Assembly: GCF_003057885.1 (NCBI RefSeq)
Contig: NZ_QAGK01000018.1
Span: 1-45,667 of the forward strand
Reading direction: 5' to 3'
Length of the DNA stretch: 45,667 nucleotides
Source: Oceaniglobus ichthyenteri
GTDB taxonomy: Bacteria > Pseudomonadota > Alphaproteobacteria > Rhodobacterales > Rhodobacteraceae
In this document: positions 23,717 to 40,174 of the stretch, piece after piece
How positions within the stretch are numbered: position 1 is the stretch's first letter
Layout: each line of letters begins with the position of its first letter
Position numbers and translations under genes: made by a program
The notes under the pieces: model-generated
Told to the model about the DNA's origin: nothing
The model's input: the letters and a program-made list of their open reading frames with translations, nothing else
The model's database searches: none

Positions 23717-24478
23717 CTACAGTTTACGGATAACCTTGGTTGCTATCAGTGCCTCAAGATGAGCGCGAAGGTCCTGAGGTACCTTACCTCCATCTATAAC
23801 CACACCTGCTTCCATATTTTTTTCCATCGCGTGTCCAGTCAAGTTTGCACTGGTCAGAAAAGCAATTTCACCATCGGCGACAGCAACCTTTGCGTGAACT
23901 TTGCCATCTGCGAAGGGTGCTGCTCTATCAGTCCAAGCAAAAAGAGCTGCGACAGGAACGTGCTTTCGCATGGTGGCGACTGGATCTACCGAGAGACTGC
24001 CGCCATGAGAGGCTGAGCTCTCCAACAGCACTTTGACATCCACGCTGCGCGAGATTGCTGCATTCAATGCATCGACCACAGTTGGGAAATCAAATGCAAC
24101 GAAACTTACGAGGAATATGTCGGTCTTCGCTCGATTTATGAGATCCAGTAACACTTGTTCTGTTCGGCGTGTCGGGACGAAGGGGGTTTGAGGTCCGGTC
24201 CAAACAAGTTCGACGTTGCCTTCTCGAAGTGTATGACGACGCAAGTGGGAGGCACCAATTAGCAAACCGGACAAATGCTCTCCAGAAATCGCAGATGTCT
24301 TCCAGCTCGACACGAGATCATCCAATGCCGCGCGCGCAGCAGGAGTGCTTACAAGCTGGTGAAGAGTCCGCCCAGCAACCTCAGGGGTTGAAACACGGAT
24401 CCGGTCAGCAATTGACTGCACTCGAGAGGGAGGAAGCAGAGAGACAATTTCTGTCACGGCAAGCAGGACCGGTTCCAT
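23717..24478 (-). CDS. drmC: DISARM protein DrmC (phospholipase D-like)
   Basis: 253 residues. The C-terminal half carries one PLD HKD motif, VHAKVAVAD (H-x-K-x4-D, about residues 193-200), followed by FLTSANLTGHAMEKNMEAG. A preceding PLD-fold segment is RTEQVLLDLINRAKTDIFLVSFVAFD. The N-terminus is helical with no signal peptide, so the protein is cytoplasmic. DrmC is the auxiliary PLD protein of DISARM, possibly a nuclease. The start overlaps the drmB stop by one base (TGATG), so it is the last, coupled gene of the operon. No clear terminator is seen in the 19 bp before the convergent phage gene. Confidence 0.88.
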   Translation of the reverse strand: MEPVLLAVTEIVSLLPPSRVQSIADRIRVSTPEVAGRTLHQLVSTPAARAALDDLVSSWKTSAISGEHLSGLLIGASHLRRHTLREGNVELVWTGPQTPFVPTRRTEQVLLDLINRAKTDIFLVSFVAFDFPTVVDALNAAISRSVDVKVLLESSASHGGSLSVDPVATMRKHVPVAALFAWTDRAAPFADGKVHAKVAVADGEIAFLTSANLTGHAMEKNMEAGVVIDGGKVPQDLRAHLEALIATKVIRKL

Positions 24479-26319
24479 CAGATCGTCTCAAAGAAAGCTG
24501 CATCAGGGTTTTCGAGCGTCGGCACGACGAGCGAGCGATCAAGGTGGCGATTTCCCCGTTCACATGAAGTCTCCGAGACGAACGAGCAGGCATGACACGC
24601 GGCACCGTGCAGAGATTGATCCTTGCTGGGGTCATGCTCCGAACACAACGGATCCGACGCACAAACATGTGCTCGTTCAAGTGCCTGGCGCAGTAGTCGA
24701 CCAAGGTTTTCAGGTTTTCCTAACTCCACAAGGCCTCCGAGGGTGCCATCAGAGTCGGCGGCAGCCGTGTAAATGAGAAATCCGGCTTGGTCGTTTCCAT
24801 CTTCAACATCTGCGTAAATTCGTTCGCGAATACTCGCGGCATTATATCCGCACTCAAGGGCAAGCTCGCGGATCAACATGTGCGCGAGTGTATGAAGCAT
24901 CACATACCGGATGCCGGGATAGCCTTCTTCGGGATCAAGGTTTCGCTTGTGCCGCCATCCGCGGTGCCCTTGACGAAGTCGCTCATCTGCCGCCTTGACA
25001 GCCGCTTTGTCTGCCCACGTCTGCAGTATCGCGGAGTCAAAGCGAATGAATATTCCTTCACCATGCACCTGGGTTGCTGGCACCCAACTGGGCGCACTTC
25101 GACCAAGGGGTGCCCGTGGCGCGGCCTCGTCGCCGGCACCTTCCTCCGGTGATTCCACTCTCGTAAACCCCAATAGTGCGTTCACCTCACGAAGGCGCTC
25201 TAAGAGCAGCACCCCAGAGATGGCTGAGCTGAAACCTTTGGGAACCCCGACTTTCTTGCTCATAAAGTGGGGGTAATCAGTAGGAGGTTTGGCAGCGGTA
25301 AGAGCGTCCCATTCGGGACCCTTTAGATCGCTTTGGTCGACCGTGGAGCCGCCCGTGCGATGGTTTTCTACCGCCGCCCAGATCTGCTCGTTGGTAAACT
25401 GTTCAATCCCCGGAAGCTGTGCAGTCTTCTTCAAGGTCTTAACCACAAAGCCAACCTCGGCTTCCGAGCTAATGTCTTCAAAGAAGGTCCAGCCATCGGC
25501 GATGATCTGTGATAGCGGATCGCCGGATTGAGGGATCGCCAAGGCCGACAGGGTGACTGGAAACCAACTATTAGTCGCTCCCAACAGGATTGCTCGCGGA
25601 GCTTCTTGGCAATCGTCTTCGAAACGGTCGACGTGCGGGTGACGTCCGCGACAAGCAGGTAAGTTGTCACGCCCTGCCTGGCCGAATGCTTGCGCCATAT
25701 TTTTCGACGCACCACAGCCGTCACATTTCACCCAAAGGTTTTCAGTCTGCAACGAGGCCCCACTTTCAAAGAACCTTAGAGTTGCCCGACAGGAACTAGG
25801 ACCGCCATGCACGAACCAGTCCCAAGCGAAATCATCCAAATGACCTGCGCGGCAGGCCATTAGGAAACGAGCCGGAACGGCATCCGCGTCGCGCGCTCTC
25901 TGATCGTTTTTTGAACCTCTGCAACCCTCGTGTACGAAGCGCGTCAGCTCTGGCCGGTATCTATTTTCCCGCAGCCTGAACAAGCCTGCGTCGTACGGGG
26001 ATAGCAATCCGCATTTCACGCAGCGCAGCCACCTAGGAAAAGGCTTGACCGGGACGCCGATGAGTGCGGCGGCCGAGAACGGGTCCACGACATCGCCATC
26101 TCCAACTGGTGGCATTCGTAGTGCTTCGACCTGTGGTCCAAGAACGTTTCTTACATTTGCCAGGAGGCGCGCTTCTTGGATGGGCTGACATCTGTCTTTT
26201 TCCCAGCGATCAATACCCATTGTGACGACCGATAAGTTTGGCAAGTCGATTAGTGCGCCAGGACCATAGGTCCAGAGAAGCTGGCTGGGGCGGATTTCTC
26301 CAACGGGTGTCCTGCTCAT
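24478..26319 (-). CDS. drmB: DISARM protein DrmB (DUF1998)
   Basis: 613 residues with ATG 26319, which overlaps the drmA stop as ATGA; a start 13 codons upstream at 26358 is open but less likely. Conserved DrmB opening RPSQLLWTYGPGALIDLPNLSVV. Cysteine pairs in RCVKCGLLSPYD and VKCDGCGASK suggest zinc binding. The C-terminal DUF1998 domain includes HTLAHMLIRELALECGYNAASIRERIY and a final Cys-rich part (CHACSFVSETSCERGN). DrmB acts with the DrmA helicase in recognising and blocking incoming phage DNA in DISARM. Length is as expected. Confidence 0.93.
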   Translation of the reverse strand: MSRTPVGEIRPSQLLWTYGPGALIDLPNLSVVTMGIDRWEKDRCQPIQEARLLANVRNVLGPQVEALRMPPVGDGDVVDPFSAAALIGVPVKPFPRWLRCVKCGLLSPYDAGLFRLRENRYRPELTRFVHEGCRGSKNDQRARDADAVPARFLMACRAGHLDDFAWDWFVHGGPSSCRATLRFFESGASLQTENLWVKCDGCGASKNMAQAFGQAGRDNLPACRGRHPHVDRFEDDCQEAPRAILLGATNSWFPVTLSALAIPQSGDPLSQIIADGWTFFEDISSEAEVGFVVKTLKKTAQLPGIEQFTNEQIWAAVENHRTGGSTVDQSDLKGPEWDALTAAKPPTDYPHFMSKKVGVPKGFSSAISGVLLLERLREVNALLGFTRVESPEEGAGDEAAPRAPLGRSAPSWVPATQVHGEGIFIRFDSAILQTWADKAAVKAADERLRQGHRGWRHKRNLDPEEGYPGIRYVMLHTLAHMLIRELALECGYNAASIRERIYADVEDGNDQAGFLIYTAAADSDGTLGGLVELGKPENLGRLLRQALERAHVCASDPLCSEHDPSKDQSLHGAACHACSFVSETSCERGNRHLDRSLVVPTLENPDAAFFETI

Positions 26320-29300
26320 TCTGAATCCTCCTCGTCCGTCGTAATTCGCGGTCGCCAAGTTGGATCACTGTTCGAACGATCGTCCTCCATGATGAGCCTT
26401 ACACCGGGTTCAACTTCACGCATGGACATCGGGACGGTCCAATCGGTCCATGGCTTTATCCCTGGCTTTGCAAGGAGCGGGTAGGATGTTGGACCGGCAC
26501 CATGTTTTTGGTAGACTAGTGTTCTACCTCCGACGCCTGCCTCATTGGCCCAATCGTCGGCTCGGCTTTTCATTTCGTCTTCGGTCAACCCCTTCTTCGC
26601 AGAGTCTTCGGTCACTTCCCACGTTCGTGCGCTGATTGCACCGATCGTTTCCAGCATCTCATTGCGACTAGGGCTGGTCATCGCGCCGGCACCGTCATTT
26701 GCAGAAAATGGATCGTAAGTATGGCGCATGATTGAAAGCATTGCGCCGGTGAGTCCTCTGTCCAACGCGCGCGGCGAGAATGGTGTAACAGACTGGGCCT
26801 CAACATGCTGATAGAACGTCGCGTGGTAGTTCTCGTAGGTTTCGTAGTGCGAAAGGTCGCGAGGACGCGCCCAGGTCAGAACGGTGGCAACGAGGCCCGG
26901 TGACGCTCGGCCTACACGGCTGGTTGCCTGGATGTATTCCGCCGTCCCTTTGGGTTGACCGTTGACTACCATTACCCCGAGACGGTTCACGTCGACGCCA
27001 ACGGAAAGCATGTTTGTAGCCAAAACCGCGTCGATTGGCTTCGCGTCGCCAGGTGTTCTATCGGTCAGCCATTTGCCCTGAACCGGATCAAAGGTGCCCT
27101 CAAATGGAACTTCCAATTGATCAAGGTATCTAGGGATGTCTTGACTGGAGACCCGCGATGTCAACTCGCTGATTTCCTCGACGCGCCGCTGGGAAAGTCC
27201 CGGGCGATCCACCAAGCTCATGTTGACTCGGAAGGAACGTGTCTGAACATCGTCCTCTGCCAATCGCTTCATTCCACCAAGCTCACGCAGCGAATTGAAA
27301 TAGCCAACCAACGTCATATAGGGGTCGGCCACCGGTCCGAACCGATCGAACAGTGCCTGTGCTGCGGTCAGGAAGGCCGTATAGGTCCTTATAAGTACCG
27401 CTGGCCGCGAACTGCCTGGTGCGCAGAGCCCTATGTAGCGCCGCCCTGGCTTCTCATGGATTGGCCTCTGAACCGAGAAGAAATTGTCTTCGACATCAAG
27501 CCCAGATGGCGGAAAAACTGAAGTCCTGCGCATAAACACGTTGCGTACTTGATCATCAGCGCGCCGCACCGTCGCAGTGGATGCGACAATCTTTGGGCGC
27601 ACCGTGTTCTCCCCAAGCTTCCAACTGCTTAGTTCATCCACTGCCGTTTCATAAAGGCCTACCATCGTGCCGAGCGGACCGCTGATCAGGTGAAACTCAT
27701 CTTGGATGATAAGATCCGGTGGGCGTATGGCTCGGATCGGCTTCACTTTGGCGGCGGGATACGCTCCAGCAGCTCGGTGTCCGGTGCCACAATCGTGGCT
27801 TGGCCACAGCAAGCCATGGCGCGTACATTCTTGTTCAACTCTACCGAAAAGAGCGCGAACTTCTGGCCGCCATGCCATCATGGCGAATTTGTCCACTGTA
27901 GCGATCATCATCGTAGGTGGCCGATGATAAATTTCCTCGTCGACCACCTTCACAGGCAAGCCCGGATGGGGCTGACCGCTTGATTTCGCTTTTGAAAAGT
28001 CGCAACTGCCCAGCTTGTCACCACAATGGATCAGCGTTCTACCACCAATCTTGTCCACCTCGATGTCGCGGCCACCAGAAATTTCAGAGCCGCACCAAGG
28101 GCAACTCGTCAACTGTGCAGGTGATGCAATGCCAGACTTGTTGCGGTCGTTGTTGCGAATTGCACCGATCGCCTGGTGGGACGCGTCGGTAGTCCCAGGG
28201 GTGACACGGTTGCCAACCCACAAGCCAAGCGTGAACGGTTCCTTGCCCCAAATCGTATCGTCTGAGCGTCGGATAACCTCCATCGCACATAGAAGCGTGG
28301 TTGCCCTCTGGAACTGCTGCAGCGTCAGGAGCCTCAACGTATAGCGCATAATCACGGCCAGGCCTCGCGAAGCGTCGAGACCTCCCAAGTCATTCTTCAA
28401 ACGGCGCATCGCCATCGCGAAGGCTGCTACACCCAGATAAGCTTCGGTCTTGCCACCACCAGTCGGAAACCAAAGGAGGTCGGCAAAAGCCTCGACCGGC
28501 TTGGTCCTATCTCCATGTGCTGGATCTGCCAGGGACGGGATCGACAGCAGCAGGAATGCGAGCTGAAAGGGTCGCCATGATCTGTTCTTGGGGACGTCCA
28601 GTGAAGCAACGTCGACCGCCTCGTTCCGTCTGCGCTTGAGGGCATAGATGCTTCTTACGCGCTGCATGGCCATGGATCGGTTTGCAAAACGGAACGCGTT
28701 CAACGCATTCGCGTCCGTGAACAGGGTCTCCATTCCCTCCCGCAGACGGACCTGTATGTCTTCACAACGAGCGATAACGTCCTTGCCGGGATCATCGAAA
28801 CCCACGATTTCGCTACCCAGTCTCGCTTTCTGTTCATTGATCCACACGGCATAGTCGTCGATTAGGCAACCGAGGGCGTCGCGCAACGCATCCGGTTCCA
28901 TCTCTGCCAGCCTCGACATGTCGAGCCAGCCTTCGTCGATCATGCGCCGCATGGCTGGGCGGTCACGCCGGTCGAGACCCGGTGTCTCGGTAACTGCGAC
29001 TTCGTAGCTCGGGATGATCTGTGTGGCCACTCGTACGGCCGTCTTTGGATCATTTTGCGTTACATCGACGTGAACCGACACCCCATGTCCCACCGCGAAC
29101 TCCAGTCGGTTGCGATAAATGAGAGCAAGCCGATCGCGTTCCTCATCGTCAACTACGACCTCGTTGGATGGACGACGCCTAAATACCGATTTGTCAGCCG
29201 TATCTTCAATAGCTTCTACAGCAATTTCAGGCTGAAACAGCCAGGCGCGGTCTTTGTTGTCGCTCGGCTCAATTTGGCCGTTCACGAGGAAGACCGTTAC

Positions 29301-30305
29301 GAGGCGTTCGCCCTTCTGGTTTGTTCGAACCGTACCTTGCAGTCTTACGTCTGGCTGGTCGGGATCAGGAACCGATGGCTTGATCTGCCCATCCACCAAA
29401 GGCAGCCTAACAGGTCCGCCACATGGGAAACGCTGCCATACCCTGACCTTGACCTCCTCTTCGCGACCCGTTTGACGATTGCGTCGAGTTTTGACGATGT
29501 CATGTTCATCATTGGGAACGCGATCATAGCGCCCCCATCGAGCATCTACATTCAGTGTTTCCACGCCGGGTGCGACGCAAAATGTCAGACCCATGCTGGA
29601 AGGCACGAGCGACTGATTGTTGGTCGTGTCGATTTCGTCCAGCGTATCGTCTTCTGGAACGACACGCCCGGTCGCGCTGGCGAATTCAGCGCCGGGTTCG
29701 TGCAGAGATGCCGTGCGTTCGTCCTCAAGGTCTCCAGCCTCATCCGCAGCAGAGGCAGGTTCTACTTGCGCAGTCTGATCCTCGTCTGGTCGTCGCGGGG
29801 CAAGTTTTCCAACCAGATAGCGATCGCGGACGCTCATGTCCTTGATCAGTTCGTGAGGGCCCTCGGCTGGACCGAGCAGATCGTCGCGGACCGACAGTTC
29901 GAGGAGATCGCGAACATAGGTTACATCATTGCTCAAGGGCACCGCATCGGGGTTCGCAACGCCGAGCAGTGGAAGCGCGCGCAGAAAATCGTCCCAAGGC
30001 AGACGCATCACTGGTGCGGTGGGTACAGTCAGACCGGGTTTAGAAAGCGGTACCCCCGGATCAATGATCTGGAACTGATCGAAATAGATCGTTCTGCCCT
30101 TGATGTCCGAGCGGATGCGAAGGATCCGACCGACTGCCGTTATGTGGTCATTATCATCCAGGACGAGCGACCAGTCGCTCGGCGCAATGGCGCTTTGATT
30201 GGTCGGTCCGGCCTCAACTCGGAATGTGAAAGGGGAAGAAGTGGCTGCACCAGTAACGATCCATGAGCCCACATCTTCCTTGGTTGCGGCAACTAATTCA
30301 GTCAT
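26316..30305 (-). CDS. drmA: DISARM helicase DrmA
   Basis: 1329 residues. Superfamily 2 helicase core in the C-terminal half: Walker A WFPTGGGKTEAYLG (about 610-623), DEFH box in IIQDEFHLISG (about 865-873), and helicase C motifs TNMLSVGVDVNRLG and YIQATSRVGRASPG (about 1120-1140). The N-terminal ~570 residues are the large DISARM-specific extension. DrmA forms with DrmB the core complex that loads on phage DNA ends. The gene starts 6 bp after drmMI and overlaps drmB by 4 bp. A 403-codon antisense frame (29055-30266) lies inside it and is a shadow. Confidence 0.94.
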   Translation of the reverse strand: MTELVAATKEDVGSWIVTGAATSSPFTFRVEAGPTNQSAIAPSDWSLVLDDNDHITAVGRILRIRSDIKGRTIYFDQFQIIDPGVPLSKPGLTVPTAPVMRLPWDDFLRALPLLGVANPDAVPLSNDVTYVRDLLELSVRDDLLGPAEGPHELIKDMSVRDRYLVGKLAPRRPDEDQTAQVEPASAADEAGDLEDERTASLHEPGAEFASATGRVVPEDDTLDEIDTTNNQSLVPSSMGLTFCVAPGVETLNVDARWGRYDRVPNDEHDIVKTRRNRQTGREEEVKVRVWQRFPCGGPVRLPLVDGQIKPSVPDPDQPDVRLQGTVRTNQKGERLVTVFLVNGQIEPSDNKDRAWLFQPEIAVEAIEDTADKSVFRRRPSNEVVVDDEERDRLALIYRNRLEFAVGHGVSVHVDVTQNDPKTAVRVATQIIPSYEVAVTETPGLDRRDRPAMRRMIDEGWLDMSRLAEMEPDALRDALGCLIDDYAVWINEQKARLGSEIVGFDDPGKDVIARCEDIQVRLREGMETLFTDANALNAFRFANRSMAMQRVRSIYALKRRRNEAVDVASLDVPKNRSWRPFQLAFLLLSIPSLADPAHGDRTKPVEAFADLLWFPTGGGKTEAYLGVAAFAMAMRRLKNDLGGLDASRGLAVIMRYTLRLLTLQQFQRATTLLCAMEVIRRSDDTIWGKEPFTLGLWVGNRVTPGTTDASHQAIGAIRNNDRNKSGIASPAQLTSCPWCGSEISGGRDIEVDKIGGRTLIHCGDKLGSCDFSKAKSSGQPHPGLPVKVVDEEIYHRPPTMMIATVDKFAMMAWRPEVRALFGRVEQECTRHGLLWPSHDCGTGHRAAGAYPAAKVKPIRAIRPPDLIIQDEFHLISGPLGTMVGLYETAVDELSSWKLGENTVRPKIVASTATVRRADDQVRNVFMRRTSVFPPSGLDVEDNFFSVQRPIHEKPGRRYIGLCAPGSSRPAVLIRTYTAFLTAAQALFDRFGPVADPYMTLVGYFNSLRELGGMKRLAEDDVQTRSFRVNMSLVDRPGLSQRRVEEISELTSRVSSQDIPRYLDQLEVPFEGTFDPVQGKWLTDRTPGDAKPIDAVLATNMLSVGVDVNRLGVMVVNGQPKGTAEYIQATSRVGRASPGLVATVLTWARPRDLSHYETYENYHATFYQHVEAQSVTPFSPRALDRGLTGAMLSIMRHTYDPFSANDGAGAMTSPSRNEMLETIGAISARTWEVTEDSAKKGLTEDEMKSRADDWANEAGVGGRTLVYQKHGAGPTSYPLLAKPGIKPWTDWTVPMSMREVEPGVRLIMEDDRSNSDPTWRPRITTDEEDSE

Positions 30306-30311
30306 TCGGGG

Positions 30312-33300
30312 CTATCCTTCATGTTCCTCGTTATCCGATGTCGCATCATCTTGGTTGCTTTCTTCCCCAAAATGCTTCGCGAAAGCCATTTCGACGGCCT
30401 TACAATCAACTGAATAAGCTTTGCAGACCAATACCTCCAAATCCAGAAGCGAGATATCATCAGGCATCTGCAAATCCAGTTTGGCTGGTATTGGAAATGC
30501 AGAAATCTGCGGCGGCCCAAAGCGCAGATAGCCACCCGATAACGCCAGGCCGCTGTAAAGGCCGAAATAAATCAAGGCGCCTAGTTTTGAATTAAGAATC
30601 GCAGTCAAGCTTCGCAGGCTAGCGCCGTTTTTTGGATCAAGAATAATCACAGTCGATTTTCCGGAAAGATACTCGCCTCGGAAATCAAGGAACGCCACTG
30701 GTCGCTTTGCCATACCAGAGATGATTATCTTCGGCTTCAAAGCTTGTTCTTGTCTCTTTTTTGGAATTTGTTTTAGATTTGCAATGGGCTTCTTGTAACG
30801 TGTTTTCAAATATTGGACAGGCGCCATTCCCCAGGTTGATCGGAACGGTCTTATATTTCCACTAACTATGAACTTGCAGAAATTTGGTGGAATCTCACGA
30901 TCGCCTATTTCTTCAATTGCTGGTATTATTTCATAAGCCTCCGACACCGTTGCAGCGCCGGAAACGGACGCACATTTGCACAGCTGAGTTGTTTCGGTCA
31001 GCGCATTCTCGACGATTTCTGAAAAGTCTGAGAGTATGAATCCCCAAAGAAATGACGGAGCATTGGCAAACGCGGCTTGACCCACAGCCTTCCGAGGACT
31101 TTTCTGCACTGTTTCCACGAATGCATCTACGCCGGTCCGGGCCATCCTCAAGACAAGAACAATTGGGTATACGCTTGCTGAGAATACGCGAATAGACGAG
31201 TAATCAGAAATGGACTGAATTTCAGATTTCGTTACAAAAATTCTACGGAGAGATTCCGCGTACTCTGCGCTTAGAATCTTGTTCGGTACTATAAATCCTA
31301 CGAGTCCGGAAGTTGCACATATGTGGAGGGCGCGCTCAAAAAACAACACATAAAGATCGTAACTCCCAGTTGCAGATGCAAAATTAGTCGAAAAGAATTT
31401 CTTGATATTTGCGCTATTTTCAGCTTCTGAAAGAACAACAGCATTAACATAAGGTGGGTTACCTATCACCGCATCAAAGCCCTGAGTATCGCGTTCGAAT
31501 ACTTCCGGGAACTCAATTGGCCAGTGAAAGAAATCTTCTTCTTTTATGGCCACTCCAGGTGCATTTCTGTTGATGAAGATCTCATCAGCCTTAACTGCCA
31601 ATTTTGTCAGTTCAGCCCTGAGCGATCTTGCATTTTTAGAAAATCTTATAGAGGTTTTTACTAGTTCATCGGCAATTAGCTTGGGGAGTTTCAGTGCTGA
31701 GCGAGATTCTGCGTCGAGCGCGGCTATTGCATCTACGTCCCCGATGTCCCGTATGGGTATTGCCCTAAGGCGCATACGAAGCGAAACCGCCTCGTCCACT
31801 GCTGATTGGATGTTGCGCCCGAACAGTCGAAGCTGGCTCGAACCCTTAGGTGCCATATCGAGTTCGATGAGCTGCCGGATATCATGGACCCCGAGAAGGC
31901 TGTCACCACTGCGGAGGTTATGGTCGAGGAAACCAAAGGGCCGTCCCTTCGACATGGTGGTCAGCCAGAGCGAGAGCTTAGCCAGCTCGACGGCGAGTGG
32001 GTTTTTATCCACGCCATAGAGACACCGCTCGGCCACTAGTCTTCTAGCAACAATTGAGCGCTCCTCTATATCCGGCGAAAGCGGTTCGAAGCCTTCGCAA
32101 CTAGCATCACCGATGATCCGGCCCTCGCTGTCGACCCTCATACCTTTCGCCTCGGTGACCGACCAAGCCTCAACCAGTCGGTCTGAGAGCCACCGGCACG
32201 CCTGAACCAGGAATGCACCCGACCCCATCGCAGGATCGCAGATCTTGAGGTCCAGCAGGTCCTCGGTACTTCGTAGCTCCCATTCCTTGGGTGTTTTGCC
32301 TTCGGCCGGACCGAGATAGGCCACCGGCGTCAGCGTTTCTTCGACAATCTTTTCTGTTAGGCTCTTCGGCGTGTAATGCGTTCCGCTCTCGTGTCGATCG
32401 GAACCAAGCACGACTACGAACGCTCCCTTCTGATGGACGAGGGGGTAACCCCACGGGTCAGTTCGCAATAGGTCAGCTAAGGGCAGTATTCTGTCGCGCA
32501 GGGCTACATCTCCGCGGCAGACGGTCAGAAGGCGAGCGGCCAACCGATCATCGACTTGCCGTTCGAGCGCATTGCGAATTGCGGACTCCGAACGTTCGCT
32601 CCGTTCTTTGAGAAGTTCCACGACCCTCGTGGTACCGTCGAGCCGCGCGGATTCCATCTCTCCAAGCGTGATCCGAGGGCTCTTTGCCTTCGAACCACCG
32701 TCGAGCTCCAGTGTTACGTCGTCGACCCGCTTGACGGTGCGTTCGAGCAGGCCTTCGTAGACGTGCCCAATCTGTTCCACATCCAGCGCACGGTAGGACA
32801 GCGCACGACCCTGGAAGGTTTGAATGGCCTCCAGCAGAAGCAGAACCGTCCGGTCGTCGATCGGAAGCGGTTCTGCCGGATCGGTCCGCCAGAAGGTACC
32901 TTTCTTACGGCCTTCGAGGAACGGATAACGGTCTGGATCGAAAAGCGAACCTCCGAGCGCTGGTAGCCGGAGGGTGGGGTGTTCGATCCCGCCAAATACG
33001 CCCCGGAACAATCCGAGCAGGCGTGACCACGCAGAGCGGCGGCGCTCAAGGATTTCCTCGGAGACCGACCGCAGCTGCATGCGTAGGCTGGAAATGGCGT
33101 AGAAGGAGTCATAGCGAGGATCGCCGAGTAATAGCAGTCCACGTTCTTCAGCGGCCAATAGGAAGACCAACCGCATCATGACAGTCAGGCTGGCCTCATA
33201 GAGCTCTCGCGGGTCGACATCTCGGAGAAGCTCTTGGTTGCGGTCTTGATTTGCACGGTCCAGCGACTGCACAAGAACCTCGACCGCCCGCCGCACCTGC

Positions 33301-34010
33301 TCGCCTAGAGCTTCGGTGACGTCGTCCTGATGCTTCAGAGACCGTTCGAAAAGTGCGGTCAGTCTGCCATCGTCGGGTCCGAAGAAACGACGTACACCTA
33401 GTAAACTGACGAAGGCGCGCAACGTCTCAGGTTCTTGCCCCCAAAGCCGCGCATACCAGCTTGCAAATCCTGCGACAGCGCCAACCGGTGCATGAACTAG
33501 CATCCAGCGCTCCCCATTGGTTACCAAGCCGATAGGGCACCCGGTCGCCCGGAGCAGTGAGACCATCCGGTCTGCCGGCGTAATGGCCAAGCCGTCAAAG
33601 CGATGGGTTGCTTCGAGGTTGGTATCTGGTGCGTAGACGTGAACGAGGAGCAAGGGTTCATCGTCATTCGTCGGATTGACGACTGCCATATCTGGCGTAA
33701 TCGTTGTCCCATGTTCCGGCATCATCATGGTCAAGCTCGCAGGGAGGGTATCACCACTGCGTAGAACGGCGTCGTCTATCTCGAGAGAGGTTGAAAGAAC
33801 TTCTTTCACCCAAGCGGCGTGGAGCTCTGTCAAATCGACATCCTGGATGTCTACCGCTTCCCGCCATTCTTCGTATGTCCTGCGAAGGCGCTGTGGGTGG
33901 CCAGAACTTAGAGCTTCAAGCCCTTGGGGGAATACGTCTTTTAGAACGGGAACAGCCAAGAAGGGCCCCGATACTTCGACGAGGTTGAGCCACTCGTGAT
34001 CGTTACTCAT
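30312..34010 (-). CDS. drmMI: DISARM class 1 adenine DNA methyltransferase DrmMI
   Basis: 1232 residues. SAM-binding motif DPAMGSGAFLVQACRW near residue 592 and catalytic NPPY (VIGNPPYVNAVV) near 847, the order of gamma-type N6-adenine methyltransferases as in type IIG/ISP enzymes. The C-terminal ~250 residues are the target recognition part. Near the N-terminus, ITPDMAVV (residues 104-111) and LLLVHVYA (120-127) resemble the PD...ExK nuclease pattern, but His and Tyr replace the acidic and lysine residues, so cleavage is unlikely. It would mark host DNA as self for DISARM. ATG 34010 overlaps drmD by 4 bp. The 3' half is noticeably AT-richer than the neighbours. Confidence 0.92.
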   Translation of the reverse strand: MSNDHEWLNLVEVSGPFLAVPVLKDVFPQGLEALSSGHPQRLRRTYEEWREAVDIQDVDLTELHAAWVKEVLSTSLEIDDAVLRSGDTLPASLTMMMPEHGTTITPDMAVVNPTNDDEPLLLVHVYAPDTNLEATHRFDGLAITPADRMVSLLRATGCPIGLVTNGERWMLVHAPVGAVAGFASWYARLWGQEPETLRAFVSLLGVRRFFGPDDGRLTALFERSLKHQDDVTEALGEQVRRAVEVLVQSLDRANQDRNQELLRDVDPRELYEASLTVMMRLVFLLAAEERGLLLLGDPRYDSFYAISSLRMQLRSVSEEILERRRSAWSRLLGLFRGVFGGIEHPTLRLPALGGSLFDPDRYPFLEGRKKGTFWRTDPAEPLPIDDRTVLLLLEAIQTFQGRALSYRALDVEQIGHVYEGLLERTVKRVDDVTLELDGGSKAKSPRITLGEMESARLDGTTRVVELLKERSERSESAIRNALERQVDDRLAARLLTVCRGDVALRDRILPLADLLRTDPWGYPLVHQKGAFVVVLGSDRHESGTHYTPKSLTEKIVEETLTPVAYLGPAEGKTPKEWELRSTEDLLDLKICDPAMGSGAFLVQACRWLSDRLVEAWSVTEAKGMRVDSEGRIIGDASCEGFEPLSPDIEERSIVARRLVAERCLYGVDKNPLAVELAKLSLWLTTMSKGRPFGFLDHNLRSGDSLLGVHDIRQLIELDMAPKGSSQLRLFGRNIQSAVDEAVSLRMRLRAIPIRDIGDVDAIAALDAESRSALKLPKLIADELVKTSIRFSKNARSLRAELTKLAVKADEIFINRNAPGVAIKEEDFFHWPIEFPEVFERDTQGFDAVIGNPPYVNAVVLSEAENSANIKKFFSTNFASATGSYDLYVLFFERALHICATSGLVGFIVPNKILSAEYAESLRRIFVTKSEIQSISDYSSIRVFSASVYPIVLVLRMARTGVDAFVETVQKSPRKAVGQAAFANAPSFLWGFILSDFSEIVENALTETTQLCKCASVSGAATVSEAYEIIPAIEEIGDREIPPNFCKFIVSGNIRPFRSTWGMAPVQYLKTRYKKPIANLKQIPKKRQEQALKPKIIISGMAKRPVAFLDFRGEYLSGKSTVIILDPKNGASLRSLTAILNSKLGALIYFGLYSGLALSGGYLRFGPPQISAFPIPAKLDLQMPDDISLLDLEVLVCKAYSVDCKAVEMAFAKHFGEESNQDDATSDNEEHEG

Positions 34011-37000
34011 TTGGATTCCTCCGAGGAGAGCTTGCTCGGCACTAGGAGCACGACGGCGACGGGGAAGGTGTGCTCAATGGTATTCGAATACCGGTCCTCG
34101 ACAGCCTGTATTTCTTGCTGCCGTTCCTTTGGCAGTCGAGCCAAACGCGCTTCCAATGCAGCAAGGTCACGCTTTAGCTGAGTGCGTTCGTCTTCGGTGA
34201 AAAGAGATAGTTGGACCGGCTGCTCCTCGGCTTTGATTTCGGATTTCAGAGCCTTCTCCAAATCATCCAAAACCTGCCGGATATCTTCGGCTTCCTTTTT
34301 CTTTCGGCTTTCGATCGTGTTTCCGAGAAAACGCAGCCTGTCTTTCGATCGCGCTTCAACGGTTGCAAGAATGGAGTCGCGCTGTTTGTCAAAACGGGTA
34401 CGCAGAGCTTCGAGCGTTGCGCTGGACACGGCAGCAGGCTGCGAGGTGTCGAGCCAGCGCCTGATCTCCGTAACTCGGTCTTCCCTGCGGAAACCTGCCT
34501 CACGCAGGTATCCGCCCGCTTCAGTGAGTTCTTCGTGTAGGCGGTGGTGGTTTCCACCTGTCACGATCAGCCGGGACAAAACGACAACAGCCGGTCCATC
34601 CAACTGCTCATCAGGAAGAGAGCGAACCGTGATGCGATGGAGTTTTTTGACATCATCGCGTGCCCAGATTTCTGCCCGAAGTAGGCGCAGGCTCATCTGG
34701 ACCAGTCTGTGGTTAAGGTGAACCAGAACGACGTCATCGCGGCCTTTGGCAACATCATGGTCGAACGTTATGGGGCGGACCTTCTGGGTGTAAGGGTGCT
34801 GGAGACCTTCAAGGCATCGTGACCACGAACCCGAAAGGGAGGGCATGCGGAAAACTGTTCCGTCCGGCGCATCATGCAGGCTGATAGGCTCTAGGTCGGG
34901 CTTGTCCGCAAGCTTGAGGGCAGTACTGACAGCGCGTTGGATGTGATCCGGGAACAGGCTCTGTTCGCGACGCGTTTCGCTCAGGCGATCGTGAAGCTTA
35001 GCCACGCGATCACGCAGATCCCGTTCAGCTTTCACGAAGCGGCGAGATTTCTCCATCCTGGCTTCCGCGGCGCGCGTATCCAGGTCCCTGCGGCGGCCCT
35101 CAAGTAAATCGGGCAACTGTGGTGTGATAACGGGATTAACGCTGCCCATATCGGCCCGCATTGCATCAAGCTTTCGCAGGGCGCGCAAAATGTCATCACC
35201 ATGTCCGCCCTCGGCATCCACGGGGTGCCAGATGACGACCTCACTGGCTCTCTGTCCGTGGCGATCAATACGACCGTTTCGCTGCTCCATGACGTTTGGG
35301 TTGTAGGGTATCTCCAGGTGGATCATCAGATGACAATGGTTCTGAAGGTCGATGCCTTCGGAAGCTGCATCCGTCGCCAACAGAATTCTGACGGGAGAAA
35401 CCGACGGACTGGCCTGAAACGCAGCCTTTACGTCCTCTCGTTCCTTGGGATCCATACCCCCATAGATCAAGGCCAGCCGGTCGCCACCAAAGCCATTGGC
35501 GACTAATATCTCCTGCATCCATTGCTGCGTTGCACGGTATTCAGTGAAGAGGATTACGCGCTCGTCAGTCCAGCTATCACCCTCGCGCAGATGCTGGGTG
35601 AGCCATTTTAGGATGGCTTTAGATTTGGCGTCTGAGCGTCGAGCTGCTTGCTGTGCCCACGATCGAAGCCCGCCGAGCATTTGGCGCTCTTCACCATTAG
35701 GCGGACGAATGTGCTTGCCAGCTTCTTCGATCGCCTCCGCTTCGGCTGCATCGCGCTTAGCGTCGTCGGCATAGTTTTCTTCGGTTTTCGAAATGGCGCG
35801 CCTCAGAATTCTATCATCGAATTTCTTCCTGCCATTTTCTGCGCGTCGATGTCCCTCTATCGTTGCAATGTGACGCTCAAGTGTGGCGGCGAATGCGGCT
35901 GGACAGGACGACAATCGCTTCCGAAGCAGCTGATGTACGAAGTGATCAACGGCTCGGCCGTCCTCTGCTGAGTCCTCTCGTGCTTTTATGAATTCCTCGA
36001 GCTTTTGGCGCGCGTCCCGTTCCTCACCAGAATACTCGATAGGCAAAGGTTCCAGTCGGCGTTTCGGATAGAGCGGTTTTCCATTTGCATCGACTAGGTC
36101 GCTCTTGAGCCGCCGAACCATGACCCGCGCGAGTTGCTGATCACTGGGCAGCACGTTTCGGGCAAAGCGTTGGTCATCCAGTAGTTCCAATAGCGCCGTG
36201 AAGGATTCCGTGTAGCCGTCGTGCGGCGTTGCAGTGAGAAAAAGCTTATGCTGGAAATGAGGTGCCGCAAGACGGACCAGTCGTGTTCGCAGGCTTTCCA
36301 CGGCATAACGGCCGACCGTGGGGGAGATGTTGTGTGCTTCATCGATAATCAGTAGATCGAATTTTCGAGGATGGCTCACATGCGGAGGTAGAGCATCTCT
36401 CAAGAGCCGCAGACCTTCGCCTTGTTTTGCCCAATCCATCGAAGTGATGAGGCGAGGAAATGAAGTCCAGGGGTTGGCGTGCAGGCCACGCTCCCGTCGC
36501 AAGTTTTTTACATATTCGGTGTCTACGATCCGGAATTCGAGCCCGAACTTCTCCTGCATCTCGGCCCGCCATTTTTCCTGTAGGGAGGCTGGGCAAAGGA
36601 CAAGAACGGTCCTAGCACGATGGCGAAGCAACATCTCTTGAACAACTAGACCAGCCTCAATGGTTTTGCCGAGGCCCACATCATCTGCAATCAGGAGATT
36701 TGTGCGCGCCATGTCGATTGCACGCACAAGTGGATCAAGCTGAAAATCCTCAATGCTAACGCCGCTGCGGAATGGGGCTTGAAGATAGCCGCGATCTGCA
36801 TTGGTGGCAGCGCCCCAAACGACTGCATCAAGAAACGCCTGCAATGTCTGCGCGTCATCCAGCCCGGTCATACGTGGAAGCCCTGCGCGTTCGATCACAT
36901 GCGCGCCGGGTTCGAGCTCCCATAACACTTCGATCTCTTCGCCAAGTGAATCCTCATCGATCGATGCGAGGCGAACGAGGTGTTGCTTTGCTCGCCCAGG

Positions 37001-37126
37001 GGCGATAGCGCCTGCGTTCACTTCGGATACGATCCATTGCCGACGCCTGACTTCGACGAGTTGGCCCGGTTCAGGCGCGGTGCCATGAGTAATTTCCGAT
37101 GTGGTTTCATCAGCAGTCATCGACAT
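34007..37126 (-). CDS. drmD: DISARM class 1 SNF2-type helicase DrmD
   Basis: 1039 residues. SNF2 helicase with Walker A DDVGLGKTIEAG (about 147-158), DEAH box LIIDEAHNISP (about 259-266), motif V/VI region LATDAASEGIDLQ (about 580-592) and RNGRIDRHGQ. The C-terminal third contains long charged coiled-coil stretches. Presence of DrmD together with DrmMI defines class 1 DISARM. It is predicted to translocate on DNA. The start overlaps the vsr end by 10 bp. Confidence 0.93.
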   Translation of the reverse strand: MSMTADETTSEITHGTAPEPGQLVEVRRRQWIVSEVNAGAIAPGRAKQHLVRLASIDEDSLGEEIEVLWELEPGAHVIERAGLPRMTGLDDAQTLQAFLDAVVWGAATNADRGYLQAPFRSGVSIEDFQLDPLVRAIDMARTNLLIADDVGLGKTIEAGLVVQEMLLRHRARTVLVLCPASLQEKWRAEMQEKFGLEFRIVDTEYVKNLRRERGLHANPWTSFPRLITSMDWAKQGEGLRLLRDALPPHVSHPRKFDLLIIDEAHNISPTVGRYAVESLRTRLVRLAAPHFQHKLFLTATPHDGYTESFTALLELLDDQRFARNVLPSDQQLARVMVRRLKSDLVDANGKPLYPKRRLEPLPIEYSGEERDARQKLEEFIKAREDSAEDGRAVDHFVHQLLRKRLSSCPAAFAATLERHIATIEGHRRAENGRKKFDDRILRRAISKTEENYADDAKRDAAEAEAIEEAGKHIRPPNGEERQMLGGLRSWAQQAARRSDAKSKAILKWLTQHLREGDSWTDERVILFTEYRATQQWMQEILVANGFGGDRLALIYGGMDPKEREDVKAAFQASPSVSPVRILLATDAASEGIDLQNHCHLMIHLEIPYNPNVMEQRNGRIDRHGQRASEVVIWHPVDAEGGHGDDILRALRKLDAMRADMGSVNPVITPQLPDLLEGRRRDLDTRAAEARMEKSRRFVKAERDLRDRVAKLHDRLSETRREQSLFPDHIQRAVSTALKLADKPDLEPISLHDAPDGTVFRMPSLSGSWSRCLEGLQHPYTQKVRPITFDHDVAKGRDDVVLVHLNHRLVQMSLRLLRAEIWARDDVKKLHRITVRSLPDEQLDGPAVVVLSRLIVTGGNHHRLHEELTEAGGYLREAGFRREDRVTEIRRWLDTSQPAAVSSATLEALRTRFDKQRDSILATVEARSKDRLRFLGNTIESRKKKEAEDIRQVLDDLEKALKSEIKAEEQPVQLSLFTEDERTQLKRDLAALEARLARLPKERQQEIQAVEDRYSNTIEHTFPVAVVLLVPSKLSSEESK

Positions 37127-37557
37127 GCCCCGGTTCCATTCTTCTTCGTTGACAGGATCAGCTCTGCGATGCGGTCAGCGGCATCGTTTGCGTCCTCGTG
37201 TTCCCAAATTCTGATCACTCGCCAGCCAAGTTCGGACAGACGTCGGCCTGTATCAGCGTCCCGCGAACGATTTTCTTCAATCTTTTCCCGCCAGAATTCA
37301 GCATTGCTCTTGGGCCACGAGGCATGCTCAGGACAGCCATGCGAAAAACAGCCATCGACGAATACAGCAACGCGCGCAGAGACGAAGACAATGTCTGCGA
37401 CCCGGCGGGGCTTTGTAATCAATGGAACCTGCAATCGATAGCGCAGCCCTCTTGAGTGCAGGGCCCTCCGAAGCTCTACTTCACATCGCGTGCCTTTCTG
37501 CCGCACGCGTGCCATTCTGCGGCTGGCTTCATGCGACGAGGGGCTTGCGTTCACCAT
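37117..37557 (-). CDS. vsr: Very short patch repair (Vsr) endonuclease
   Basis: 146 residues; a second start at 37515 would remove 14 residues and the overlap with the methyltransferase gene. Vsr fold with VRQKGTRCEVELRRALHSRGLRYRLQ, catalytic region RRVADIVFVSARVAVFVDGCFSHGCPEH with the zinc-site cysteines and histidines, and HGCPEHASWPKSNAEFW. Vsr enzymes nick at T:G mismatches left by deamination of 5-methylcytosine, which fits the adjacent C5 methyltransferase. Here the gene is embedded in the DISARM operon between dcm and drmD. A role as a restriction nuclease is an alternative. Confidence 0.92.
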   Translation of the reverse strand: MVNASPSSHEASRRMARVRQKGTRCEVELRRALHSRGLRYRLQVPLITKPRRVADIVFVSARVAVFVDGCFSHGCPEHASWPKSNAEFWREKIEENRSRDADTGRRLSELGWRVIRIWEHEDANDAADRIAELILSTKKNGTGACR

Positions 37558-38626
37558 CTCTTGGGGCTCTCTCCTTTTCGTCAGGCCGTTCTTGATACAT
37601 TGCGCCGAGGTGCTGATTGATGCTTCGACCTATCACCTCACCAAGCGTTACTGGGACTGCATTGCCAATCATTCGACCCAAAGCCTTGAAGTGAATAGGG
37701 CCACCATCGGGGACAAACGAATATGAGGTTGGGAACCCCTGCAGAATTGCACCCTCTCGTAACGAGATTGCACGCTCTTGATCCGGATGCCCGAACCTGC
37801 CGTTGCCGAACCCGTAATATTGGGTGGTCAATGTGGGAGAGGGGGAATCCCACTCCATCCGCCCGTAAACGCCTGGATAGGTGCGACCGGTCTCTTTGCG
37901 ATGGCATGCTGCGACAAGGTGTTCAGGCCAATCCCTCCAAGTGCCGCCAGGCCGCGATGCGCGTATTCGCTCCACGTTCAGGGGGGAAAGCTTGGATGCC
38001 GCATGCATGGCATCGGCGTGGGAAGCTTCACCGTTAAAAAGAGGAGGGAGCCCGCCTATTGCGTCTCGCACGGTTCGTCTGTTTTCAGGTTCCGGCGCGA
38101 CTATCTCGATCGGCCCCAGTCTCGAGGCGAGCAGCACCATACGCCGCCTGGTCTGAGGGAGGCCGTACTTCGTGCAATCGACCACGCTTCGATAGACATG
38201 GTAGCCTTGGTCCATCAGCGAGTTTGCAAAATCGTCGAAAACCGCATGCTTGGCGACAGTGGGGACATTCTCCATCGTCACTATTTGGGGCCGCGTTTCT
38301 TTGACGAGGCGGTCGAATTGGTAAAGGAGGCCCCAACGAGGACTGCTCAACACATCATACCTTTGAGAGTAGGTCGAAAAGGGTTGGCAAGGAGCGCAGC
38401 CCGCCAGAACCCTGATTGCGCTCTTCCCGTGAAGAGCGTTCAGCTGTTCCCCCGAAATCTTGCTGACGTCTTCTTTTATGAATTTTGCGGCGTTGTTGAA
38501 TTCGAATGGGTGACGACAGCTTTCTTCAACGTCGACACCTGCGACGACATCAATTCCCTCTTTTTGCAGGCCATGGGTCAGGCCCCCGGCACCACAAAAA
38601 AGGTCAATGCATGTCACGTCCTTCAT
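37529..38626 (-). CDS. C5-cytosine DNA methyltransferase
   Basis: 365 residues. Motif I DLFCGAGGLTHGL (residues 8-20), motif IV AGCAPCQPFSTY with the catalytic Cys at about 80, motif VI TMENVPTV near 117-124, motif VIII LPQTRRRMVLLAS, and the C-terminal motif X IGNAVPVTLGEVIGRS. A complete, normal-length Dcm-type enzyme. Class 2 DISARM uses a C5 methyltransferase (DrmMII), but this operon is otherwise class 1 with its own DrmMI. So it is either an extra self-marking enzyme or a separate Dcm/Vsr unit joined to the operon. The coding end overlaps the first vsr start by 29 bp. Confidence 0.93.
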   Translation of the reverse strand: MKDVTCIDLFCGAGGLTHGLQKEGIDVVAGVDVEESCRHPFEFNNAAKFIKEDVSKISGEQLNALHGKSAIRVLAGCAPCQPFSTYSQRYDVLSSPRWGLLYQFDRLVKETRPQIVTMENVPTVAKHAVFDDFANSLMDQGYHVYRSVVDCTKYGLPQTRRRMVLLASRLGPIEIVAPEPENRRTVRDAIGGLPPLFNGEASHADAMHAASKLSPLNVERIRASRPGGTWRDWPEHLVAACHRKETGRTYPGVYGRMEWDSPSPTLTTQYYGFGNGRFGHPDQERAISLREGAILQGFPTSYSFVPDGGPIHFKALGRMIGNAVPVTLGEVIGRSINQHLGAMYQERPDEKERAPRDGERKPLVA

Positions 38627-38657
38627 TCTTGTTCTTACTCCTCAAACGCTTTTGGCC

Positions 38658-38846
38658 TCACGCCTTGAATTCATCTCCGGCTTTGCCGTTCCTGACCCAT
38701 TCATCGACCTCGTCAGTCTTGAACTTCCAAAGCCTGCCAACCTTGTGCGCGGGCATTTCGCGTTTGGATATCCACCCATAAACAGTGTCTTTGCTGACAC
38801 CGAGGTAATCTGCTATCTCTTCAACAGAGACCCATCGATCGGTCAT
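38658..38846 (-). CDS. Excisionase/MerR-type HTH DNA-binding protein, first gene of the DISARM operon
   Basis: 62 residues. VSVEEIADYLGVSKDTVYGWISKREMPAHKVGRLWKF in outline is the helix-turn-helix-wing of the DNA-binding excisionase family (HTH_17). It starts at ATG 38846 with GGAAGG upstream and ends 31 bp before the methyltransferase, on the same strand. This placement suggests a regulator of the DISARM/methyltransferase operon, perhaps setting the order of methylase and nuclease expression. Three TTTAC-type motifs lie upstream. A function in excision is less likely because no integrase is next to it. Confidence 0.82.
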   Translation of the reverse strand: MTDRWVSVEEIADYLGVSKDTVYGWISKREMPAHKVGRLWKFKTDEVDEWVRNGKAGDEFKA

Positions 38847-38889: not shown

Positions 38890-38963
38890 TTTACACTCTG
38901 CTTCGCCTGAGTAAACCGGAATAAGTGGGATTAAGCCCGTTCTCAACGAGTTAAGAGCGTAAA
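38890..38963 (-). promoter_or_regulatory. Putative operator array upstream of the DISARM operon
   Basis: Three copies of a TTTAC(0-2 nt)CTC motif lie 44-117 bp before the HTH gene: TTTACGCTC (minus strand, 38955-38963), TTTACTC (minus strand, 38909-38915) and TTTACACTC (plus strand, 38890-38898). The last two face each other. This would fit operators for the encoded HTH protein. I do not see a strong -35/-10 pair on the minus strand. Confidence 0.35.
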
Positions 38964-39256: not shown

Positions 39257-40174
39257 CTATTCCACCTCAGTTGGTGGAGCGGAGGACATCTCGGTGATCG
39301 CTTGAAATTCTGTCAGAAACTCCGGCCGATGCTGCATCAGATACCGGACGATCCTGGCGTTCCCGAGCAGCTTTGCCAGATACCCCTTGATCACGGTCAG
39401 CTGCAGGTGGTCCTGGCCGTAGGAGTCTTGGATCGAAGTGATCCCTTCCTGCAGCCGGGCCAGCTCGCGCTCCATGCGGGCCATGGCCTCAGGGGTGATG
39501 CCCTTCATCTTCTTGGGTTTCTTCGTGTCCACCAGCTGCGCCTGGGGCGTTCCCGCCAGAATTGCAGAGATGTATGCCGGAGAATAATTGTTCGCGTTCA
39601 TCATCAGCTCTGCCGCCTCGATCTGGCGCATGGCTTTCATCTTGCGCAGGATTTCGAACACGGCGGTCGCACAGTGTTTGTCTTTCAGGATGCTAACGGC
39701 CTCTTCGCAGATTCCGTCGAGGAGCTTGGCTTCACGCACAATGCTGCGCGGATTGAGGTCGAGAGCCAGAGCGATCTTTTCCTCGGAGACACCGCGCTCA
39801 ATGGCCTTGCGGATCATCTTGTGCTCCTGGATGGGCGCAAGGCGGCTGATCCGCTTGTTGTAAGTGAATGCCTCGTCGTCAGTGGAGATCAGACATTCGA
39901 CCCGTTCGATGCCGAGATCCTTCAGCACCTCGATCCGGATATGCCCGTCAAGCAGCATAAAGGTGCCTTCCTCTCCCGTGGATCGCGTGACGACCGGCGG
40001 TTCGACCAGGCCAACCTCTTTGATCGACGCGGTGATCTGGCGGTACTTGCGGCTGGATTTGACGGATGCGCTGAGGGCGCGCACGGGCAGTACGGCCTCT
40101 ACCGGCACGGTGACGCAATCGCTTTCGAAGCCAAGCGTGACCGCGTCCGGGGTTTTGCGCTTGCCCGGGCTCAT
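39257..40174 (-). CDS. ParB/RepB-like protein 2 (RepB C-terminal-type), recombinase module
   Basis: 305 residues. N-terminal ParB domain (VPVEAVLPVR, TASIKEVGLVEPPVV, LLDGHIRIEVLKDLG) with GHIR instead of the usual GERR-type box. HTH region EEKIALALDLNPRSIVREAKLL follows. The C-terminal part (LRKMKAMRQIEAAELMMNANNYSPAYISAILAGTP) is typical of 'plasmid partitioning protein RepB C-terminal' proteins. No ParA/RepA or RepC is nearby, so classic plasmid partition is unlikely. It overlaps the preceding ParB-like gene by 4 bp (ATGA), and both follow the serine recombinase. The function within the module is unknown. Confidence 0.82.
   Translation of the reverse strand: MSPGKRKTPDAVTLGFESDCVTVPVEAVLPVRALSASVKSSRKYRQITASIKEVGLVEPPVVTRSTGEEGTFMLLDGHIRIEVLKDLGIERVECLISTDDEAFTYNKRISRLAPIQEHKMIRKAIERGVSEEKIALALDLNPRSIVREAKLLDGICEEAVSILKDKHCATAVFEILRKMKAMRQIEAAELMMNANNYSPAYISAILAGTPQAQLVDTKKPKKMKGITPEAMARMERELARLQEGITSIQDSYGQDHLQLTVIKGYLAKLLGNARIVRYLMQHRPEFLTEFQAITEMSSAPPTEVE

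Follow-up and report, generated by a model that had tools for sequence, protein, structure and literature searches.

What is a C5-cytosine methyltransferase doing at the head of a class 1 DISARM operon? The question is raised by a contig of 45,667 nucleotides (NZ_QAGK01000018.1; hereafter the window, meaning this whole stretch) from the 3.9-Mb genome of Oceaniglobus ichthyenteri. Here the five genes of a class 1 DISARM defense system are preceded, on the same strand, by genes for a helix-turn-helix (HTH) protein, a C5-cytosine methyltransferase (hereafter MTC5) and a Vsr endonuclease. Our analysis suggests that the cytosine mark is not an oddity of this genome, but the fixed partner of one branch of class 1 DISARM, whose helicase DrmA carries an extra N-terminal domain. 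Where existing schemes give C5 methylation to class 2 and N6 methylation to class 1, the C5 gene would be better treated as a clade marker inside class 1. The features in question, in order of transcription, are:

38908..38937, minus strand: three tandem 10-bp repeat units 5' of the HTH start, a proposed operator array (trained matrix; the last unit overlaps a putative -35 element, TTTACT).
38658..38846, minus strand: HTH protein of excisionase/MAD1 type, 62 residues, first gene of the operon (Pfam HTH_17, 7.4e-18; NCBIfam NF047737 antiphage_MADS1, 82.7 bits, cut-off 80).
37529..38626, minus strand: MTC5, C5-cytosine DNA methyltransferase of DrmMII type, 365 residues (PF00145, 4.2e-52; PADLOC DrmMII PDLC02651, E 3.2e-90; catalytic motifs).
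37117..37557, minus strand: Vsr endonuclease, 146 residues (TIGR00632, 111.3 bits, cut-off 97.85; PF03852; match to E. coli Vsr 1cw0).
34007..37126, minus strand: drmD, SNF2-type helicase, 1039 residues (NF038317, 1357 bits, cut-off 610).
30312..34010, minus strand: drmMI, N6-adenine methyltransferase, 1232 residues (PADLOC DrmMI; PF07669).
26316..30305, minus strand: drmA, YprA-family helicase, 1329 residues (NF038325, 1453 bits, cut-off 950, aligned from residue 131; 7s9v, Serratia DrmA).
29925..30305, minus strand: DrmA N-terminal domain, about residues 1-127 (profile built in this analysis; EVE-like according to PMC12458937).
24478..26358, minus strand: drmB, DUF1998/MZB protein, 626 residues (NF038324, 761 bits, cut-off 240; PADLOC).
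23717..24478, minus strand: drmC, PLD nuclease, 253 residues (NF038319, 244.6 bits, cut-off 133; PADLOC).

The eight open reading frames (ORFs), from HTH through DrmC, are intact and fill the minus strand from 23717 to 38846, every junction being an overlap or a gap of at most 31 bp. At the front, HTH and MTC5 are separated by 31 bp, MTC5 and vsr overlap by 29 bp, and vsr overlaps drmD by 10 bp. In the core, drmD and drmMI overlap by 4 bp, drmMI and drmA are separated by 6 bp, and drmA/drmB and drmB/drmC overlap by 43 bp and 1 bp, respectively. The initial annotation, made from the sequence alone, had MTC5 and Vsr overlapping both each other and drmD; the MTC5/Vsr and Vsr/drmD overlaps stand, and MTC5 itself does not touch drmD. 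Upstream on this strand, the nearest gene identified is a RepB-like ORF that stops at 39257, leaving 410 bp before the HTH start; the transcription unit therefore most likely begins at the HTH gene.

NCBIfam models score above cut-off for DrmC, DrmB, DrmA, DrmD and Vsr, and none does so for DrmMI; PADLOC identifies DrmC, DrmB, DrmA, DrmMI and Vsr. For the DrmD ORF, the top PADLOC model is labelled DrmA (PDLC02572, 1574 bits) and the second DrmD (PDLC02621, 1445 bits); we assign it to DrmD because NCBIfam NF038317 settles between the two labels. Catalytic motifs are present in MTC5 (PCQPFS and ENV), DrmMI (DPAMGSG and NPPY), DrmA (Walker A and DEFH), DrmD (GLGKT and DEAH) and DrmC (HxK(x4)D), in agreement with the intact motifs first described. 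Under the PADLOC definitions, with drmA, drmB, drmC, drmD and drmMI all in one operon, the window holds a complete class 1 DISARM in canonical gene order with an HTH, C5 methyltransferase and Vsr front, exactly as initially annotated.

The same front recurs elsewhere. The Microvirga terrae plasmid pR24_2 (NZ_CP102847.1) carries it with the same overlaps and continues, like the window, through drmD, drmMI, drmA, drmB and drmC. It differs in its DrmMI specificity region and in an ATP-binding protein (HATPase) and a putative O-methyltransferase encoded between drmMI and drmA (L023:21250-23664; L numbers are our locus handles). This interval is an accessory slot, 6 bp long in the window and at least 2 kb in many other loci. 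On a Deinococcus plasmid, vsr and MTC5 sit at the opposite end, after drmC, and plasmid DISARMs of Oscillatoria, Rhodococcus and Sphingomonas have neither MTC5 nor vsr within the stretches examined. Because the same overlapping HTH-MTC5-Vsr-drmD order recurs in other genera, the front is more than chance. The initial annotation named occurrence in this genome alone among the findings that would refute it; the front's recurrence in many lineages shows that this is not the case.

The presence of MTC5 follows a feature of DrmA. We compared the window with the best 80 of at least 583 DrmA-centered relatives from a scan of a genome collection, adding missing flanks and mapping genes with profiles built for this analysis. 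In the window DrmA, about 127 residues lie ahead of the NCBIfam short-form model, whose match begins at residue 131. A profile of this N-terminal domain separates presence from absence clearly: 36 of 91 DrmA pieces (80 loci, 6 plasmid loci, the window and 4 DISARM-like loci) have the domain, L042 only as a contig-cut remnant. In a quick tree of the helicase part of DrmA only, the owners form a single clade (SH-aLRT 99). The one exception inside it, L047, is truncated by its contig; L102 is absent from the tree because its sequence is too short. Members come from Pseudomonadota, Actinomycetota, Verrucomicrobiota, Planctomycetota and Myxococcota; judged by where the loci originate, Deinococcus and a Gemmatimonadetes assembly belong here too.

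We called a locus testable if it holds drmD plus at least 1 kb in front of drmD. MTC5 is present in all 27 testable loci that own the domain, 24 times ahead of drmD (in L036 ahead but about 6 kb away) and three times on the 3' side (L024, L051, L095). Among the 19 testable loci without the domain, a few of which have a short 3' flank (137 bp in L025, 993 bp in L068), one has a C5 methyltransferase, and it is of another type (L091); L076, outside the testable rule, also has one of another type. Nine owners lie outside the testable set, being contig-cut or split (L031, L037, L042, L054, L056, L058, L059, L097, L099), and in five of these (L031, L056, L058, L059, L097) MTC5 lies either at the edge of a contig or on a separate stretch. 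The association of domain and MTC5 is strong when kinship is ignored (Fisher 6.7e-12 and 6.6e-13). Across whole genomes, a match to the MTC5 family at E <= 1e-60 occurs in 29 of 33 with the domain versus 0 of 32 without, a count that excludes 12 of the 80 loci (short contigs) as well as L047, L055 and L057 (N-end missing).

Held-out loci follow the same pattern. Of the three owners, one came from a separate search and two from a search for the domain in sets of 398 and 369 genomes; in all three, MTC5 and Vsr stand at the front. The one non-owner has neither within 5.2 kb. The domain turned up four times in 767 genomes, always inside a frame of DrmA length. Elsewhere, a Citrobacter-type DrmA had no match in the E. 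coli genomes searched, and DrmA had none in the phage records searched; a search of 394 genomes of the Citrobacter order for Serratia-like operons yielded just the genome of the query and one relative at 42%.

The predicted specificities of the two methyltransferases have had different fates: alignments show the specificity region of MTC5 conserved across the clade, and that of DrmMI swapped even between close relatives. Among 33 DISARM MTC5s, mean pairwise identity is 0.63 in the specificity region versus 0.58 in the catalytic part; among 32 DrmMIs, it is 0.67 in the N part versus 0.36 in the C (specificity) part. In the window, the swapped region begins at about residue 790 and makes up the last third of DrmMI. 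Between the window and its closest relative, L029, DrmMI identity is 0.91 over residues 21-640 and 0.23 over residues 801-1180, and blastn delimits a replaced cassette at 30210-31702 between flanks that are 94% and 90% identical. The MTC5 recognition regions of this pair are 90% identical. MTC5 identities moreover correlate with those of DrmA (r 0.77, n=27, 0/2000 permutations).

Two further cases depart from the usual layout. The operon of Nostocoides jenkinsii (L097/L154) is split inside drmMI, with HTH-MTC5-drmD and the 5' part at ~1.12 Mb and the 3' part with drmA, drmB and drmC at ~3.59 Mb, perhaps a rearrangement through drmMI. L095 has a DrmA nearly that of L048 and L058, which carry MTC5 in front; it has lost the MTC5 of its front, and 5 kb downstream lies a GmrSD_N(DUF262)-HEPN-MTC5 system. 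Compared with the MTC5 of L048 and L058, the downstream enzyme is 0.65-0.69 identical in the recognition region and 0.50-0.54 in the catalytic part. As one case, this apparent replacement could be a coincidence.

Could the front simply be a passenger? It might be an independent methyltransferase and repair cassette, carried next to DISARM on mobile DNA without contributing to its action. This is the alternative that survives best, although we judge it rather improbable. The same MTC5 family occurs in DUF262-HEPN systems, once with vsr adjoining; its position in DISARM loci varies between the front, the 3' side and a site about 6 kb off; and several loci have a decayed Vsr or none. A passenger with no role is nevertheless hard to reconcile with the retention of MTC5 in 27/27 and 3/3 loci over several phyla, with front genes that overlap, with the joint divergence of MTC5 and DrmA, or with the finding of a close MTC5 in none of the 32 genomes of the other branch.

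Vsr behaves differently from MTC5. It occurs on 27 pieces, 25 of which have a C5 methyltransferase on the same piece; the remaining two (L031, L055) are interrupted by a contig end, and their assemblies have MTC5 at another place. No testable locus has Vsr without a C5 methyltransferase. MTC5 is found without Vsr on 13 pieces (L039, L040, L043, L049, L050, L076, L095, L102, L123, L124, L125, L154, L156), of which L123 belongs to the same assembly as the Vsr-bearing L055, and Vsr is degenerate in L029 and split over two frames in L048. Vsr is dispensable in this family. Repair of deaminated 5-methylcytosine (5mC) is a plausible activity for it, and because Vsr is tied to the C5 methyltransferase yet often lost or decayed, optional repair is most likely its role, rather than that of a core effector.

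The competing idea, that Vsr is a defense effector nuclease nicking DNA engaged by DrmAB/DrmD, strikes us as a little less credible still than the passenger cassette. It has in its favor that vsr overlaps drmD in the window operon and that Vsr-type nuclease domains fused to ARMADA YprA helicases are predicted to be active (PMC12458937). Against it, many branch members keep drmC but have a broken Vsr or none, and no testable locus has Vsr without a C5 methyltransferase.

The HTH gene may provide control. A homolog at E < 1e-10 stands always directly ahead of MTC5. Upstream of it, among lags of 8 to 13, 10 bp is the best self-match lag in 12 of 18 loci, another lag being best in six. The 10-bp periodicity exceeds all 100 shuffles in five loci (L029, L030, L032, L034, L052); three of the twelve (L035, L048, L053) do not stand out from shuffles, and for the window alone the observed periodicity is reached by 2 of 100. 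Chains of at least three units occur in 5 of 14 held-out loci (window included) versus 21 of 5400 random 166-bp windows from the same loci, by a matrix that was trained on four loci with its phase set by eye and to whose training loci the five positives are kin to varying degree. Excisionase-type proteins bind side by side on one helix face, and the 10-bp spacing suggests such binding here. We propose that the tandem repeats are a putative operator array of the HTH protein.

How might a fixed cytosine mark serve DISARM? The closest solved relative of the window DrmA, from Serratia sp. SCBI (PDB 7s9v/7s9w), has the N-terminal domain (7s9v, E 4e-38, residues 5-133). The Serratia system, called Class I in a title cited within PMC9142583, resembles the window in its drmA with N-domain, its drmB, and N6-adenine and C5-cytosine methyltransferases in one operon (motifs ACAC(mA)G and YMT(mC)GAKR); it differs in that neither Vsr nor an HTH gene with a repeat array is mentioned for it in the available part of that paper. 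There, 5mC in DNA is reported to lower the ATPase of Serratia DrmAB (PMC9142583). Bell et al. describe the class 1 DrmA N-terminal domain as EVE-like and predict that it recognizes modified bases (PMC12458937), and the EVE-like fold of the window's domain is taken from that report; the word cytosine is absent from its main text as available. Combining the Serratia 5mC effect, the ownership of the domain by Serratia DrmA and the prediction of Bell et al., we propose that the N-domain may be a 5mC reader.

In the resulting model, both methyltransferases would mark host DNA, the adenine mark being re-specified by swapping the DrmMI specificity region and the cytosine mark staying constant. Unmarked incoming DNA would load and activate DrmAB together with DrmD, and DrmC or host nucleases would finish it. 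The DrmA N-domain would read the fixed 5mC mark and help hold DrmAB off self DNA, while Vsr, as an optional helper, would repair the T:G mismatches left by 5mC deamination. The HTH protein would autoregulate the operon through the tandem 10-bp operators and thereby place methylation and restriction under common control. To the account as a whole, namely a class 1 DISARM branch with N-domain DrmA, a C5 partner of constant specificity, a swappable adenine mark, a 5mC reader, an optional Vsr and an autoregulating HTH, we assign a probability of about two in three.

The pairing of the N-domain with one C5 family of constant specificity, set against a swapped adenine specificity, points to a reader-writer pair. 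Such a pair would address how DISARM separates self from foreign DNA and why its methyltransferases can seem dispensable. With the odds somewhat against it, we tentatively extend the idea: class 1 DISARM may comprise two functional types, the one seen here using two-factor self-recognition. In it, a constant 5mC mark from a resident or borrowed C5 methyltransferase would be read by the DrmA N-domain and combined with the swapped adenine mark, with Vsr guarding against decay of the mark and the MAD1-type HTH coating its 10-bp operators for timing. Within the literature searched, three things are new: the rule that ties MTC5 to one clade, the contrast between a constant and a swapped specificity, and a front of Vsr and HTH genes preceded by a repeat array. 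In the open-licence papers searched, we found neither Vsr in DISARM nor a link between the DrmA N-domain and a C5 methyltransferase.

Several observations weigh against the account of a fixed cytosine partner and its reader. The clade with the extra domain has a single origin, and the co-occurrence with MTC5 does not represent many independent events. Because the trait arose once, the strength of the association lies in MTC5 never being seen lost while its position changes. The held-out support is narrow: the DrmAs of L171 and L173 are 97% identical to that of L045, and L172, at 74-78% to its nearest relative, is the only distant test. Four owners (L037, L042, L054, L099) have no close MTC5 in the assembly, their DISARM loci being cut by a contig end. 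The constancy of MTC5 has limits as well, since the branch's most diverged members, L024 and L053, are 0.47 and 0.49 identical to the window in the recognition region. Nor is the family exclusive to DISARM, because DUF262-HEPN systems without DISARM have the same C5 family with a similar specificity region; in the stretches shown, no DISARM genes are annotated beside them except in L095, which has both.

The window's own Vsr and promoter add to these difficulties. Its Vsr keeps the Asp of the ADIVF motif and the His of GCFSH, residues whose catalytic roles we presume to be those of E. coli Vsr, and reads FSH at a site where Trp stands in every one of the 27 other aligned rows (26 loci) that have a residue; the other 3 of 30 rows, broken or partial, have no residue at this position. 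We take the site to be that of the intercalating Trp of E. coli Vsr, here replaced by Ser. The Trp is kept in a Vsr 90% identical to the window's on a viral contig (L168). No good -10 element follows the window's repeats.

The reader function meets its own objections. The N-terminal domain does not match Pfam EVE, and hhalign against EVE proteins of 30 loci gives an end-to-end alignment that is not significant (probability 0.2%), no better than some of the controls (0.0-0.3%). The abstract of the Aparicio-Maldonado preprint on Serratia reportedly states that loss of the methylases gave no autoimmunity. Bravo et al. put the methylation sensor at DrmA Val1296, not in the N-terminal domain (PMC9142583).

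The window also fits class 2 DISARM in one respect. PADLOC defines class 2 by drmE and DrmMII, and the best model for MTC5, PDLC02651, is of DrmMII type. No DrmE model is among the PADLOC matches listed for seven operon proteins (all but the HTH) and one neighboring ORF, the best 25 matches each for four of them. DrmA is the short form (NF038325, 1453 bits against a cut-off of 950); the long-form model NF038326 scores 715 against 999. Long-form DrmA is associated with class 2 DISARM. Thus the operon shares with class 2 the use of a C5 methyltransferase, and differs in its short-form DrmA, its drmD and drmMI, and the lack of drmE among the matches listed, a comparison made on definitions and gene content.

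The initial annotation reasoned from C5 methylation as a class 2 trait to a hybrid or transitional type, a reading that is not supported, as the C5 gene follows one class 1 branch. A true hybrid, a class 1 core that acquired DrmMII from class 2, is very unlikely despite the DrmMII label of the best MTC5 model: a dual-methyltransferase class I DISARM had already been described in Serratia (PMC9142583), neither DrmE nor a long-form DrmA is among the matches listed for the operon, and the branch falls among class 1 DrmAs in the tree. Both marks in one operon are accordingly known already, and not new here.

Two other comparisons were made and set aside. L149-L152, drmD-less second DrmA loci in actinobacterial genomes, were dropped as class 2 comparators: PADLOC on eight proteins of L149 and L151 lists GajB-like and other helicases, SNF2-like among them, and no DrmE, so the methyltransferases of these loci have no bearing on the hybrid question. 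Their C5 methyltransferase and Vsr genes lie on the same stretch: in L151 they adjoin drmB, and in L152 their distance from drmA reaches about 12 kb. Membership of the operon in MADS is ruled out, with only the HTH matching. In MADS, the MAD1 HTH stands ahead of a DNA methyltransferase, an order the window shares, and the HTH passes the MAD1 model NF047737 (82.7 bits, cut-off 80). The MAD2 methyltransferase model of NCBIfam lies far below threshold in the window (20.7 bits, cut-off 720), and the remainder of the operon is DISARM.

The surroundings hint at mobility. A siphophage-like structural module on the plus strand (51-23280; head protease, major head protein, tape measure, tail proteins and an endolysin-like peptidase) adjoins the operon, and a collinear phage module also adjoins the Amphiplicatus DISARM (L045/L163); a tblastx comparison of the whole window with prophage flanks gave noisy results, of which the collinear segment 4199-10685 alone was used. 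On four viral contigs, drmD is found whole or in part, together with portions of the front or of the core. Given these viral contigs and the adjoining phage modules, prophages may carry this DISARM type as cargo. The minus strand immediately upstream of the operon encodes a large serine recombinase and two RepB/ParB-like proteins whose genes overlap (39257-42653), and a serine recombinase is found near the front on the viral contig L167 (5299-6723). An IS21-type istA/istB pair sits between the phage tail genes and the peptidase (20208-22444, plus strand). Finally, a protein with a NO VEIN C-terminal (NOV_C) domain is encoded at 44553-45383 on the plus strand, and a similar stretch lies beyond drmC in L029.

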